64,000 bases of DNA from Thermodesulfovibrio sp. (lineage in GTDB: Bacteria > Nitrospirota > Thermodesulfovibrionia > Thermodesulfovibrionales > UBA6898), in NCBI GenBank assembly GCA_013824615.1, contig PNOC01000011.1, positions 1 to 64,000 of the forward strand. The letters run 5' to 3'. Within the stretch, counting starts at the first letter, position 1, and every line of letters begins with the position of its first letter. This document shows positions 32,906-40,100 of this stretch, in pieces. The position numbers and the translations under genes were made by a program. The notes under the pieces are model-generated. The model saw only the letters and a program-made list of their open reading frames with translations. It was not told the origin of the DNA and ran no database searches.

Positions 32906-32929
32906 GGGCGGGCGTAAGCCCGCCCTTTT
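32906..32929 (+). terminator. Intrinsic terminator after the Ig-like lipoprotein gene
   Basis: GGGCGGGC, loop GTAA, GCCCGCCC, then TTTT. Confidence 0.85.
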
Positions 32930-32989
32930 GTATTTCTCCGGCCTGACCGGGGATTCGGCAGTAGAGGACTTAAAAGAAGGAGAACATGC

Positions 32990-35596
32990 ATGAATAAAAT
33001 AATAATCTCAGCCTTCCTGACACTGTCCCTGGCAGCCTGCGGCACTTCAAAGACTGCAGATGTCATGACTGGTGGCAGCCAGCAGGGCACCACGGCAAAA
33101 GTTGTTACTGCCAAGGCGGTTCTCGACAAGATCGGCGATACAAACTACAAGGATGGCGAACTGCTTGTCAGGTTCAAAGACAATACTCCCCAGTCTGCGA
33201 TAGACGCCGCACATCAGGCAGCCGGCTCCACAGTGCTCAAGAAATTTTCTAACGTATCCAATCTTCAGCATATAAAATTGCCTGCGGGCCTTGCAGTCCA
33301 GGATGCGATTACCCTGTACATGGCCGACACCAATGTCGACTATGCAGAGCCCAACTATATCCGTACTGTTTCCACAATTCCGAATGACCGTTATTTCACC
33401 CCTCAGCAGTGGGCGCTGCAGAATACCGGCACCTTTGCCAACGGCACTGCCGGGGCAGATATAAAGGCCACCGGGGCCTGGGACATTACGATGGGCAATA
33501 GACGCGTGGCAGTAGGAATACTGGATACGGGCATTGATTACACGCACCCTGATCTGGTCGGTAATATGTGGGCTGACCGGGTCAAGGTCCTGCTTCAGGA
33601 CCTGCACTGGATGGGCCATGACACCTTCAAGATCGTCGGGGAACAGGTCATCTATACCGATCCCTACAGCCTGGAACGGGAAGATGTGGCGGATATTATC
33701 CTTATCTCGCATGACCACTTCGACCACTGCTCTCCTGCCGACGTGGTAAAAGTGCTGGGACCGGACACGATCATCGTTACCACTGCCGATTGCGCGCAGA
33801 GGTTGAGAGATACGGTTCCGACACTGAAGCCTCATGCAGTTCCGAATATCAGAACCGTCAGGCCAGGGGACAAACTCACAGTAAACGGCATACCCATAGA
33901 GGCAGTGCCTGCCTATAATGTTAATAAGGCTCAGAATTTTCATCCCAAAACAAGCAACTGGGTCGGCTTTGTCTTTACCGTCAACAGAGACCGCGATATT
34001 TATATCCCGACAGATGCAACGAACCCGGTCGATCTCAAGTTAGAGCAGGGCCCGCGGATATATTTTGCAGGGGATACTGATTACATTCCCGAGATGCTGT
34101 CGAATCCCGCGATAAGGGGCGCTGATGTGGCCCTGCTGCCGGTATCCGGCGTCAATGCGATGACGGCTGATGAGGCTGTGCTGGCTGCCCTCCATATCCG
34201 GCCGAAGGTGGCTATCCCGATGCACTACGCAACAATTGCCGGAACAAAGGCTGATGCCCAGAAATTCGTGGACAATCTTGAGGGCAGGATTGAGGCCGCA
34301 CTGATGGTTGACCACAGTGCCGCTTATACTTCCTTTACAGTTGAATATGACAATAATAAAAAGCTCGATGACTGGAGAGGCTGGAACTTTGTCTCCGGAA
34401 ATAATGACCCCTGGGACGACAATGGTCATGGCACGCACGTTGCCGGGACTGTTGGTGCCACAGGCAACAACGGTGAAGGCATATCAGGCGTCAACTGGCA
34501 TGTCGAAATCCTCCCGCTCAAGGTATGCGGTTCTGATGGATGCCCGAGTGCAGCCATTATCGATGCTATCGGCTATGCAGCTTTTAAAGGCGTAAAGATA
34601 CTGAATGCCAGCCTCGGCGGCTCCGGTCACTCTTATGCTGAAAGAGATGCAATTCTTGCTGCACGGGAAGCAGGGGTACTGCTGATTGCTTCCGCCGGGA
34701 ACGGAGGCGGAGACCGTATCGGTGATAACAACGATATCGACCCGCAGTATCCTGCTGCCTATGTATTGGATAACGTCATTGCCGTGGCTGCCACCGATCA
34801 GAACGACCGGCGGGCCACCTTCAGCAATTTCGGTCTCCAGACAGTTCACGTCGGAGCTCCGGGGACGTACATCCTGAGCACGGTCCCGACGAGTTCAACA
34901 ACGGTCCCGTCGCCGACTTCCTGGCAGAATGTAAACTGCACAGGGGCTCCCTTTGCCGGATATAACATCTGTGACGGCACCTCCATGGCCGCACCGCATG
35001 TGACCGGGGTGGTTGCTCTTCTGGCCCATGTTTATCCTTATTACAGTTATTCCCAGATCAGGGGGATGATCATTAAATATGTTGACAAGCAGCCTACGCT
35101 TGAAGGCTGGACCTACTCAGGTGGTCGGATTAATGCCCAGCGTGCAATCAGCTCTTTGCTGAACCCGGCGGCCTTCGTGGCTGCGGCGCCCCTGACTTCA
35201 GAGATTACGCTCTCCTGGAAGGATAACTCTGGCGAGGACAAGTATTTGATCGAGAGAAAACAGGCTGATGGAAGCTTCCAGTTGATAGCCGAACCGGTTC
35301 AGAATTCTACCACGTACACCGACAGGGGCCTGACTGCCGGCACATCATACACCTATCGCATCAAGGCTGTCAGCAGTCTTCCCAATCCGCCAAACCGGGA
35401 ACCGATTACTGCAGTTTCTGACTATACTGAAGTGACGGCTGTAACGCCCACTCAGTCTTCAAGTTCAGACAGTGGCGGTGGCGGCTGTTCTCTTGGCAGA
35501 AGCCAGAATATGCCGACGGCTGTTGCTGACAGTGCAGCCCTCCTTCTGCCGCTGATTCTGCTCGGACTGGCAAGCGGTCTTCGCCGCAGAAAATAG
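32990..35596 (+). CDS. Lipoprotein subtilase (S8) with a metallo-beta-lactamase-fold domain inserted in the catalytic domain
   Basis: An 868-residue exported protein. In order: lipobox LAAC (Cys17); a fervidolysin-like propeptide (GELLVRFKDNTPQSAIDAAH to YAEPNY, about 45-125); and the start of the S8 domain with catalytic Asp179 in ILDTGIDYTHPDL. After NMW (residue 194) about 260 residues form an UlaG-like MBL hydrolase. It begins LHWMGHDTFKI, with ligands H241, H243, D245, H246, probably H318, then D362 (AGDTD) and H412 (PMHY). At DDWRGWNF (460-467) S8 sequence resumes, with His480 in NGHGTHVAGT, Asn in SAGNGG and Ser665 in GTSMAAPHV. Residues 725-805 are fibronectin III-like. The end has GGGGC, a hydrophobic helix and RRRK, like a CTERM sorting signal. 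The frame is continuous, with an AAGGAG site. Both active sites look intact; substrates are unknown. Confidence 0.88.
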   Translation: MNKIIISAFLTLSLAACGTSKTADVMTGGSQQGTTAKVVTAKAVLDKIGDTNYKDGELLVRFKDNTPQSAIDAAHQAAGSTVLKKFSNVSNLQHIKLPAGLAVQDAITLYMADTNVDYAEPNYIRTVSTIPNDRYFTPQQWALQNTGTFANGTAGADIKATGAWDITMGNRRVAVGILDTGIDYTHPDLVGNMWADRVKVLLQDLHWMGHDTFKIVGEQVIYTDPYSLEREDVADIILISHDHFDHCSPADVVKVLGPDTIIVTTADCAQRLRDTVPTLKPHAVPNIRTVRPGDKLTVNGIPIEAVPAYNVNKAQNFHPKTSNWVGFVFTVNRDRDIYIPTDATNPVDLKLEQGPRIYFAGDTDYIPEMLSNPAIRGADVALLPVSGVNAMTADEAVLAALHIRPKVAIPMHYATIAGTKADAQKFVDNLEGRIEAALMVDHSAAYTSFTVEYDNNKKLDDWRGWNFVSGNNDPWDDNGHGTHVAGTVGATGNNGEGISGVNWHVEILPLKVCGSDGCPSAAIIDAIGYAAFKGVKILNASLGGSGHSYAERDAILAAREAGVLLIASAGNGGGDRIGDNNDIDPQYPAAYVLDNVIAVAATDQNDRRATFSNFGLQTVHVGAPGTYILSTVPTSSTTVPSPTSWQNVNCTGAPFAGYNICDGTSMAAPHVTGVVALLAHVYPYYSYSQIRGMIIKYVDKQPTLEGWTYSGGRINAQRAISSLLNPAAFVAAAPLTSEITLSWKDNSGEDKYLIERKQADGSFQLIAEPVQNSTTYTDRGLTAGTSYTYRIKAVSSLPNPPNREPITAVSDYTEVTAVTPTQSSSSDSGGGGCSLGRSQNMPTAVADSAALLLPLILLGLASGLRRRK

Positions 35597-35792: not shown

Positions 35793-38700
35793 ATGCCCAG
35801 AGATAATATGACCCGAGACAAATCAAAATATTCAGGAATAATACGGGCGCAGTGGATAGGTTTAATGATCCTTGCGCTTTTTGCTTTTGGTTTGTCCGGA
35901 ATATCCGACGCTGCAACGATCACGGTTGTAAAAACCGGCACCGGCACCGGACTGGTCGAGAGTTCGCCGGCCGGTATAAGCTGCGGCGCTTCCTGCTCCA
36001 GTTCCTCCTTTGACACCCAGGTTACGCTCACGGCGACTGCAGATGCCGGTTCGCAATTTGTGTCGTGGGCCGGCTGCACCAGCGTCTTGAACGGCCAGTG
36101 TCTCTGGGATGCTGGACTGGACACGACAGTTACCGCAATTTTCGCAAGCCTGAACGACAGGATCGTAAAGATTAATGCCACAGACAATCAATGCTCCACC
36201 GTTAGCGCCTGTGTCAAGGTGAAGGGCACTGCAGGGCTTCTGACAAACCTGACCGAAAAAGATTTTACCCTTAGGGAAGACGCTATTCAGCAGACGGACT
36301 TTACGGTTCAGAGGGCAACCTGCCCCGGCTCAAGTGTTGCCATCGGCATGACCATGGACTACAGCGGAAGCATGTCAGGACAGGCCATAACAGATATGGA
36401 GAATGCGGCGGTAGGTTTTGTTAATACCATGGCTGCCTCGGGCAGCGAGATGGAGATCGTCAAGTTCGACGACCTCGTGTACGTTGTTCAGGGCTTTACC
36501 TCAAGTTCTAGTGCCCTGATCAACTCGATACTAGCCCCCTTCCCCGGACTAAACGGGGCAACAGCACTCTACGACGCGGTTTATCAGGCCCTGCTCGATA
36601 CGGCATCCCGGAATGCCTCGACTGCGGCAGTTATCGCCATGACCGATGGCGGCGATAACAGTTCCACCCAGACAGTCGATACGGTGATTCAGCTTGCTAA
36701 TGACAATGGCCTGCAGATTTTCTCGATCGGCCTCGGCACCGGGATTGATGCAGCCATGCTTACCCGGATGGCGCTCGAGACAGGAGGCAAATATTATGAG
36801 GCTCCGTCTTCATCTGATCTTGCCGCCATCTATGCTTCGATTTCCAATGATCTGGCTGAAGGGTATGTCCTGACCTATCCGGAGATGGACCTGCGGGTGA
36901 ATCAGGGCCATACGCTTGAGATTCAGGTCGGCCCCAATACGGGAGGTACGGCCTCTGTCCAGTACTCTACCCTCGGGTGCCGCGTATTGACGGTCAATGC
37001 CACCGGCCTTGGAGCCGGCTCGGTTCTGTCTGATATCGGGGGGGTTAATTTCGCCTACCCTGCGGCAGCGCTGCAGTCCACCATACTTGCCCCGAACAGT
37101 TACATCAATCTGTATGCGAACCTGGCAGGAGCGTTGTCTTTCGGCTGGTCAGGCGATTGCATAGGGGGCACCAATGTAAATCCGTGCGAAGTAAAGATGG
37201 ATGCAGACAATAAAAATGTTACCGTGGATTTTTCATCAACTGTTTCTGCAGCTCAGTATATCCTTACGGTAACAAAAGCAGGCACCGGCAGCGGGACGGT
37301 CCTCCCTATAGTCACCGAGAACGGTGATGCCGCAAACCAGCTTGCAAACTGGCAGCTCGATGGCATAACCACGGCGAATTCGAATGCCTATACCCTCTAC
37401 TGGAACCTCACTGATTTTGCCGGAGTCAGGACCGTGCAGCTCTATAAGGCCTTGGGCAAGACCTCCCCCGACCTCGTTGCCCAGGGTTCACATTCGGGCA
37501 ACGGGACCATCCTTCTGACTGCGCAGAATAGTTCAGGGATTACCGGAAGCGTTGATGTCACCTATACAGTGAACGACGTGGATGCATTAAACACACTGGA
37601 TTCACTGAATATGGGTTCTCTGGTATGGAACGGGAATACCGGTACTGCCACGCATAACAATACGGATATAGTGACACTTCAGGCTCTGCCAAACACCGGG
37701 TCAATCTTCACCGGCTGGGGTGGAGACTGTGGAGGGGTTGGAGTCTGTCAGGTTACCATGAGTGCTGCCAGAAGTGTAACAGCGAATTTTTCAGCAGATG
37801 GCGCCAATGGATATACGACCACCCTTACCGTGATAAAGGATGGCAACGGCAGCGGAAATGTACGGGTAACATCAGTGACCATACCCGGAGCTATTGACAA
37901 TGCCGAGATTGCTGAAAATGGTGATACATCTGACCAGCTTACGAACTGGCAACTGGCCGGAGTATCTACCGAAAATACGGATGCATATACGCTCTATTGG
38001 GAACTGACTGACTCCGGCGGTACACGGACGGTTAGGCTCTTTAAGACTGCGGCAAAGCCCGCTACGGATCTTGTTGCGCTGGGGACATTGCTCGGCGACG
38101 GGACCTTGACCCTCAGTGCGCAGAACAGTTCAGGCCTTTCAGGTTTTGTAGATGTTGTTTACAAGGCTGTCATTAGAGAAACAGGTGACACGAACTCCCA
38201 GGTTGCAGACTGGCAACTGTCCGGATTATCGGCCTCTAACGTTGATATTATCAGCCCGACCTTATTCCAGCTGACCTGGTCGCTCGACGGGACAGCCGGT
38301 GCAGGCACGATAGACCTCTCCAATACCGGGGGCGTGGTCGCGAGCGGGGTATTTGCCGGTGCAGGGCCTGTGGCGCTTGCTCCCCAGAACGGCTCAGGTC
38401 TTTCAGGCACGGTCAACGTCAATCCCCTGCTGACTCTGATTGAGGATGGCGATACAGCGGAACAACTTGCGAACTGGCAGTTGGTGGGTATCACGGCCGG
38501 GAACTCTGACGCCTATGTGCTCTACTGGGAACTGTCCGACGTAAGCGCAAACAGGACTGTAAGCCTTTATATGAATACGGCAAAACTTGCCGGTGATCTG
38601 GTGGCCCAGGGTTCGCATCTCGGGAATGGACAGATCCTGCTGACCCAGAGAAACGGCTCCGGGATATCCGGCACGGTAGATGTGCTGTATGGTGGGCTTC

Positions 38701-40100
38701 CAGACAATGACGATGGCAATACCCTTACCCTGACCCTGACGACAGACATTGACGCAGAAAACATACTTAACCTCACCTTTGGCGAAACTGACATCAATAA
38801 CACGCTTGTCCTGCCCGACATCGGGGTCCTGATCTGGAATGGCAACACCGCAACAGCCACGCATAAAACCAACGACATCGTTATTTTGACTGCGCTGCCA
38901 AGTCCGGGATCCACATTTACCGGCTGGAGCGGTGGCGGGTGTACAGGGACAAGCACCTGCACCGTAACCATGGATGCGGCCAAGACCGTCACGGCAACCT
39001 TCACGCGGCCTGACCCGCCCACGCTTACGGTTACTATGGCCGGGACAGGCTCAGGCAATGTGACGCCGGGCACAGCGACATATCCTTACAGCACTATGGT
39101 CACCCTGACGGCAGTGCCGGTCGCCGGGTCGGTCTTTACCGGCTGGAGCGGCGAATGCAGAAACACCGGCCCAACCTGCACCATACTGATGAACGGAAAT
39201 AAGAGCGTTACGGCACACTTCCTGCTGGAGAACACGTCATCGTATTTCGACGTTGCCTCAGGGAGCTTAGTTTTACCGTACACCGAATCCCTCTTCAACA
39301 ACAGTGTTGCGACCGGCTGTACAAGCGGTTTTTTCTGCCCGGGCACGGTGATCAATAATGGCCAGATGGCTGTATTCATCGTGAAGGCCCTGGGCCTGCC
39401 TCCGGCAGATACCTGCACCGGCACAATGTTTAATGACGTGAACAGTTCGATGACAGGCGGCACAGAGGCCTGCAGGTATATGGAGAAGTTTGGTGATCTG
39501 AATATTATGTCAGCCCGGGGTGACGGCTATTTTCTGCCGAATGCAACGGTTTCCCGAGCCCTGATAGCAGAGGTCATCCTGCGGGCACTCGGGGTGTCCC
39601 CGGCAGCGACCTGCAGTTCTGCAATATTTGATGATGTTACTGATGGCATGTTTGGCGGTACGACGGCCTGCAGATATATCGAGAAACTCAGTGAATTCAG
39701 TGCTGCGGCCGAATGCAGTCCGGATAACTATTGTCCTGACAGTCCGCTTACCAGGAGTCAGTTGGCAGTGTTTCTGACAGAGACGATCCTGCAGACCAAT
39801 AATTCCTGCAGAACCAGCCCGGTCAAAAACGCCCGGACGTATATTATGTACGATACCATCCAGAATGCGTACAGTGATCCTGCTAATATCCCTCAGAACG
39901 GCGATGTTTTCCAGATCAGCGGGACCACCTCTTTGCAGACGTATACGAATTCGGTGGACTTCAATCTCCCGGTTTCGATCACGGTGAGGGGCGGGTATGA
40001 TTGCGGCTTTATCAGCAGCCTCGCAACAAGGTCTGCAATTCTGGGGGTGTTGACGATCTCCGACGGTGATGTCACGATCGACAAGGTCGAGATCCAATAG
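35793..40100 (+). CDS. Giant exported VWA / repeat / S-layer homology protein
   Basis: 1435 residues. A signal peptide (membrane stretch about 22-40, ending SDA) precedes an InlB-B-like module with SFDTQVTLTATADAGSQFVSWAGC. A von Willebrand A domain (about 180-370) follows with MIDAS D189-S191-S193 (DYSGSM), GATALYD and MTDGGD, so metal-dependent ligand binding is plausible. Four copies of an unrecognised repeat of about 85 residues follow, built on GD...QLANWQL.G....DAYTLYWEL. They are interspersed with GWSG..C...TCTVTM modules. Three Cys-containing SLH domains (about 1160-1330) should anchor it to the cell wall or S-layer. The last 100 residues end in a GGYDCGF...TISDGDVTIDKVEI beta module. 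AACAGGAG precedes the ATG. Confidence 0.85.
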   Translation: MPRDNMTRDKSKYSGIIRAQWIGLMILALFAFGLSGISDAATITVVKTGTGTGLVESSPAGISCGASCSSSSFDTQVTLTATADAGSQFVSWAGCTSVLNGQCLWDAGLDTTVTAIFASLNDRIVKINATDNQCSTVSACVKVKGTAGLLTNLTEKDFTLREDAIQQTDFTVQRATCPGSSVAIGMTMDYSGSMSGQAITDMENAAVGFVNTMAASGSEMEIVKFDDLVYVVQGFTSSSSALINSILAPFPGLNGATALYDAVYQALLDTASRNASTAAVIAMTDGGDNSSTQTVDTVIQLANDNGLQIFSIGLGTGIDAAMLTRMALETGGKYYEAPSSSDLAAIYASISNDLAEGYVLTYPEMDLRVNQGHTLEIQVGPNTGGTASVQYSTLGCRVLTVNATGLGAGSVLSDIGGVNFAYPAAALQSTILAPNSYINLYANLAGALSFGWSGDCIGGTNVNPCEVKMDADNKNVTVDFSSTVSAAQYILTVTKAGTGSGTVLPIVTENGDAANQLANWQLDGITTANSNAYTLYWNLTDFAGVRTVQLYKALGKTSPDLVAQGSHSGNGTILLTAQNSSGITGSVDVTYTVNDVDALNTLDSLNMGSLVWNGNTGTATHNNTDIVTLQALPNTGSIFTGWGGDCGGVGVCQVTMSAARSVTANFSADGANGYTTTLTVIKDGNGSGNVRVTSVTIPGAIDNAEIAENGDTSDQLTNWQLAGVSTENTDAYTLYWELTDSGGTRTVRLFKTAAKPATDLVALGTLLGDGTLTLSAQNSSGLSGFVDVVYKAVIRETGDTNSQVADWQLSGLSASNVDIISPTLFQLTWSLDGTAGAGTIDLSNTGGVVASGVFAGAGPVALAPQNGSGLSGTVNVNPLLTLIEDGDTAEQLANWQLVGITAGNSDAYVLYWELSDVSANRTVSLYMNTAKLAGDLVAQGSHLGNGQILLTQRNGSGISGTVDVLYGGLPDNDDGNTLTLTLTTDIDAENILNLTFGETDINNTLVLPDIGVLIWNGNTATATHKTNDIVILTALPSPGSTFTGWSGGGCTGTSTCTVTMDAAKTVTATFTRPDPPTLTVTMAGTGSGNVTPGTATYPYSTMVTLTAVPVAGSVFTGWSGECRNTGPTCTILMNGNKSVTAHFLLENTSSYFDVASGSLVLPYTESLFNNSVATGCTSGFFCPGTVINNGQMAVFIVKALGLPPADTCTGTMFNDVNSSMTGGTEACRYMEKFGDLNIMSARGDGYFLPNATVSRALIAEVILRALGVSPAATCSSAIFDDVTDGMFGGTTACRYIEKLSEFSAAAECSPDNYCPDSPLTRSQLAVFLTETILQTNNSCRTSPVKNARTYIMYDTIQNAYSDPANIPQNGDVFQISGTTSLQTYTNSVDFNLPVSITVRGGYDCGFISSLATRSAILGVLTISDGDVTIDKVEIQ

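Follow-up and report, generated by a model that had tools for sequence, protein, structure and literature searches.

The analysed window, 64,000 nucleotides of a contig from an uncultured Thermodesulfovibrio sp. (Nitrospirota), contains a gene in which a whole metallo-beta-lactamase (MBL) domain lies between the catalytic Asp and His of a subtilase (S8 protease). An earlier sequence-only reading had proposed this arrangement, and it is now borne out by nested Pfam matches, an AlphaFold model and two homologues in other genomes. Literature searches revealed no report of a subtilase with an MBL nested in it, in agreement with the earlier statement that no such family had been described.

Layout of the gene and the insertion site

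The gene occupies 32990-35596 on the forward strand, as do all features given below, and has full-length homologues in genomes G003 (L087) and G012 (L088). It is one uninterrupted ORF of 868 amino acids with AGAAGGAG directly upstream of its ATG, and it encodes a secreted-type subtilase enclosing the MBL domain. The translation begins with a signal peptide of the lipoprotein type (32990-33040; lipobox LAAC, Cys17), in which Cys17 is common to all aligned subtilases, followed by a Fervidolysin_NPro-like propeptide (PF22148; residues 42-122; 33113-33355; Pfam E 1.2e-14). By Pfam and alignment, the first part of the S8 catalytic domain (residues 151-196; 33440-33577) contains the catalytic Asp179 (33524-33526), and the second part (residues 462-720; 34373-35149) contains His480 at 34427, the oxyanion Asn571 and Ser665 at 34982. 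Between them lie the inserted MBL domain (PF13483/PF12706; approximately residues 197-450; 33578-34339), delimited by Pfam, alignment and AlphaFold, and the right junction 'VEYDNNKKLDD' (34340-34372), located by alignment with insert-free relatives. The interval 33566-34370 (residues 193-460) originally given for the insert brackets it correctly.

Downstream of the catalytic domain are a fibronectin type III domain (fn3; residues 736-806; 35195-35407; Pfam E 3.4e-07) and a C-terminal tail of GGGGCS, a hydrophobic helix and RRRK (35465-35593). This tail resembles a MYXO-CTERM sorting signal, with a marginal match to TIGR03382 (15.9 bits against a cut-off of 15.85; E 0.015), and alignment shows that it is also kept in insert-free relatives. 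We infer from its lipobox, and from the borderline resemblance to MYXO-CTERM, that the protein is probably an exported, membrane-anchored protease.

Within the 868-residue protein the Peptidase_S8 match (PF00082; residues 172-698; 2.7e-55; 188 bits against a gathering score of 21.8) spans the Lactamase_B_3 match (PF13483; residues 205-412; 3.6e-21; 76.2 bits against a gathering score of 24), both far exceeding chance, and a Lactamase_B_2 match is nested within the Lactamase_B_3 region. Recounting confirmed a spacing of 301 residues from Asp179 to His480, while the corresponding gap in 34 related insert-free S8 genes is typically 50-60 residues and at most 83. S8 domains from 121 genomes of the order span ∼0.47-1.07 kb of DNA, except in the three fusions, where the span is ∼1.58 kb. 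Alignment with deseasin MCP-01 (3vv3) pairs residues 151-197 with 22-68 and residues 451-637 with 76-263, and ∼253 residues stand in place of seven deseasin residues (69-75). The insertion site named by the sequence-only reading was thereby confirmed, but the loop is not otherwise unchanged: where insert-free relatives keep a short acidic loop, '(G)IDDDGNGxIDD', the window protein has the right junction instead. The lost element, with its 'DxDGNGxxDD' motif, was likely a calcium loop.

A structure prediction, one of the checks suggested alongside the original proposal, was made for residues 150-730 with an alignment of 57 sequences. The AlphaFold model (mean pLDDT 87.7, pTM 0.78; MBL mostly above 90) predicts that both domains are folded, with the protease fold enclosing the MBL. 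Using Foldseek, this predicted structure matches deseasin 3vv3 along the entire S8 domain, the alignment bridging the insert (TM 0.86 of target, 578 alignment columns), and the two protease halves are therefore predicted to close around the insert.

The inserted domain and its metal site

The insert had been described as UlaG-like, and this assignment needs to be revised. It scores 91.1 bits with the UPF0173 equivalog model NF001911, below the curated cut-off of 144, and 28.1 bits with the UlaG model NF008688, below the cut-off of 306; its nearest solved folds are 3kl7 and 3x2z (TM1162). UPF0173/TM1162-type hydrolases are thus closer to the inserted MBL than UlaG is. Like the UPF0173/TM1162/Igni18 hydrolases (PF13483), which include its closest folds, it has the five His and two Asp ligand scheme of Igni18 (PMC7846560); those enzymes are normally free-standing, Igni18 acting as a trimer, whereas the fused MBL is nested, with an additional one or two segments.

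Signal peptides are common in the standalone MBL family of the Thermodesulfovibrionales, so this family is probably periplasmic and the donor MBL would have shared a compartment with the host protease. In the alignment the insert starts at the mature start of the standalone MBLs (fusion ADRVKVLLQDLHWMGHDTFK, L020 AKEVKVMVQNIQWLGHDTFK) and ends in a linker of ∼16 residues that runs past their C-terminus. Two internal segments identified by alignment are absent from the 21 standalone MBLs compared: one of 11 residues (33809-33841), found in the window and G003 fusions and partly kept in G012, and one of ∼21 residues (33986-34048), common to all three fusions and a low-confidence loop in the AlphaFold model. 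Base composition is even between the insert and the rest of the gene, and a foreign composition of the insert was rejected. No direct repeats were found flanking the insert; site-specific or repeat-mediated insertion was rejected in their absence.

The protease residues D179, H480, N571 and S665 are present in the window, G003 and G012 fusions. In the window MBL all seven metal ligands are found, namely H241, H243, D245, H246, D362 and H412, as listed by the sequence-only reading, together with H318; the second-sphere H210 is a further addition, and the roles of H318 and H210 were assigned by alignment. The site thus fits an HxHxDH motif plus three further ligands; in TM1162 the second-sphere residue is His8 (PMC7846560). 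These eight positions are invariant in 21/21 standalone MBLs, and the fusions keep 8/8 (window), 6/8 (G003; H210T and H412N) and 5/8 (G012; H210N, H241N and H318N). The earlier view that both active sites are intact therefore holds for the motifs of the window protein but not for its two relatives, which have lost metal ligands.

The complete set of ligands and H210 in the window would be expected if protease and metal hydrolase were both active in this species on linked cell-envelope substrates, the other lineages having lost the hydrolase secondarily. The MBL tree points the same way, with a branch of 0.12 for the window against 0.59 and 0.60 for G003 and G012, and relative-rate counts agree in direction (9-14 changes in the window against 19-25). 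However, this excess is marginal (p 0.02-0.5), and the strong acceleration of the G003 and G012 domains that the tree suggests is supported weakly by the relative-rate test. Moreover, of 104 MBL columns that are otherwise nearly invariant, 18 differ in the window, the TYV motif (residues 388-390) among them, and a fully conserved standalone MBL is encoded elsewhere in the genome. We regard such a bifunctional enzyme as possible but somewhat unlikely.

Alternatively, the insert could be a tolerated passenger that folds alone, leaves the protease unharmed and is slowly decaying without function. Ligands have been lost in two of the three species, and between G003 and G012 the MBL has diverged further than the S8 domain (62% against 75% identity). 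Against this, the reading frame and most of the MBL sequence have been kept over a long divergence (62-71% identity among the fusions), and the fusion persisted after passing from one genus to another. For the MBL, each of the three pairs gives an approximate dN/dS ratio of 0.10-0.11, and the sole pair with usable dS gives 0.10 for S8; although dS is near saturation, these values indicate continuing constraint on the MBL sequence. A functionless passenger is accordingly a poor candidate.

Distribution, locus and origin of the fusion

The same arrangement occurs in the congeneric G003 (69% identity over residues 1-868) and in G012, from another genus of the same family (64% identity over 4-868). 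All three fusions have the junctions 'NMWADRVKVLLQD' and 'YDNN(K/H)(K/R)xDDWRGWNF' in common. The sequence-only reading had advised looking for other S8 proteins with an insert at this loop and had named the lack of any homologue sharing either junction as grounds for doubt; the search returned two genomes that share both. In a 96-contig draft genome that also encodes a separate, related MBL, one might suspect that assembly or binning had wrongly joined two genes, at 33566 and 34370. Because the architecture, including both junctions, recurs in two other genomes, the fusion is not an assembly chimera; in addition, the separate MBL is just 58% identical to the insert and base composition does not change across the gene, leaving an artefact with a negligible probability.

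No fusions beyond these three were detected in 27 genomes of the family, 177 of the order and 396 sampled from the phylum, nor in a search with the MBL part of 231 genomes of the class. A scan of GTDB contigs by exact peptide patterns, which would miss G003 and G012, showed all of the 80 nearest MBLs to be free-standing.

The fusion resides in a locus with the conserved order pilM-N-O-P-Q, small lipoprotein, Big_1 protein, subtilase, (VWA/InlB protein), typA. At precisely this pilMNOPQ-typA position, the congeners G001 and G002 encode a subtilase that lacks the insert. The insert-free subtilases of G001, G002, G017 and G019 share with the fusion the signal, propeptide, S8 domain, fn3 domain, C-terminal tail and neighbours, and differ in having the short DxDGNGxxDD loop in place of the 253-residue insert. 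Between the Big_1 and fusion genes of the window (32906-32932) there is a GC-rich inverted repeat followed by a T-run, resembling a terminator. The VWA/InlB-repeat gene adjoins the fusion in the window (35793-40100) and is present in both genomes of genus g1, the window genus, that carry the fusion (G000 and G003), while it is absent from three insert-free congeners and from G012, G017 and G019. Its product may be a partner or substrate of the fusion.

The three fusions are monophyletic in every segment tree (support for the MBL 100/99, S8 100/99, propeptide 99/97 and tail 87/85), and grouping of their S8 core with the insert-free congeners was rejected (AU p 0.015). In the G012 fusion the first 36 residues are 76% identical to the resident gene of its own genus, while the S8 core falls firmly outside that resident group (AU p 5e-8). 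The simplest account would be one fusion origin followed by replacement of resident genes via homologous recombination. These phylogenies show the fusion gene to have moved between genera, apparently by recombination at the pilMNOPQ-typA locus. In G012 a fused subtilase and one without the insert lie in tandem (L117, 5801-10995), and G017 and G019 have two insert-free copies in the place of this tandem.

The separate MBL of the window genome (L005, G000:C18:16113-16724) has a signal peptide and all ligands. Genes of this type are found in 5/5 genomes of g1 and in 0/5 of g9, the genus of G012; the fused copy is therefore the only MBL of this kind in G012. A recent duplication of the genome's own MBL was rejected, given the 58% identity and the separate clade formed by the fused MBLs. 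The AU test spoke against nesting of the fused MBLs with the g1 standalone copies without firmly rejecting it (p 0.067).

Role of the nested domain and its relation to known subtilases

Loss of metal-binding residues in both relatives suggests that the inner enzyme now serves the protease more than its own reaction. The domain persists despite different ligand losses in two lineages, which argues that MBL hydrolysis is not what retains it. We therefore favour, with middling confidence, a reading in which the MBL is an accessory (exosite or gating) module of the protease, possibly still catalytic in the window species. A subtilase lineage of the pilMNOPQ-typA locus in one Nitrospirota family has taken up a complete, mature UPF0173-like MBL of probably periplasmic type in its Asp-His loop, where the newcomer may substitute structurally for the lost acidic loop. 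In the putatively exported protease it could bind or position substrate near the cleft, or limit access to the cleft, as PA domains do. With its complete metal site, the window MBL may still bind metal or hydrolyse something, while persistence of the nested architecture would not need that activity. Two observations count against this accessory role: no metal ligand is missing from the window protein, although a purely structural role would require none, and the fusion is carried by three sequences only. We consider it doubtful that both nested enzymes are active and that, at the cell envelope, the inner one gates the proteolytic activity of the outer one through metal or ligand binding.

Large Asp-His inserts are known from other subtilases, including pyrolysin and tripeptidyl peptidase II, and Gao et al. 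2017 reportedly found that the inserts of pyrolysin affect stability and activity. To our knowledge, none of these inserts is recognisable as a separate enzyme family. The novelty of the present case is an insert that is recognisable as a separately encoded enzyme, large inserts at this position being already known. PA-domain subtilases offer a second comparison, since they too contain an independently folding domain within the S8 catalytic domain, with shown or proposed effects on substrate binding and access control (PMC5177683). The PA domain differs in having a non-enzyme fold and in being inserted between His and Ser, as in P57 (triad 153/188/492, PA 340-479; PMC5177683), whereas here an MBL lies between Asp and His.

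In summary, the fusion is a natural case of a whole enzyme nested in the catalytic domain of another, and its insert shows where the subtilisin fold has naturally accepted a further domain. The insert-free alleles at the same locus of congeners, together with the partly decayed inner sites of the relatives, provide a ready comparison set. This set is suited to testing how a host protein can tolerate an inserted domain, recruit it and put it to use, and whether a pseudoenzyme can be retained as an exosite.
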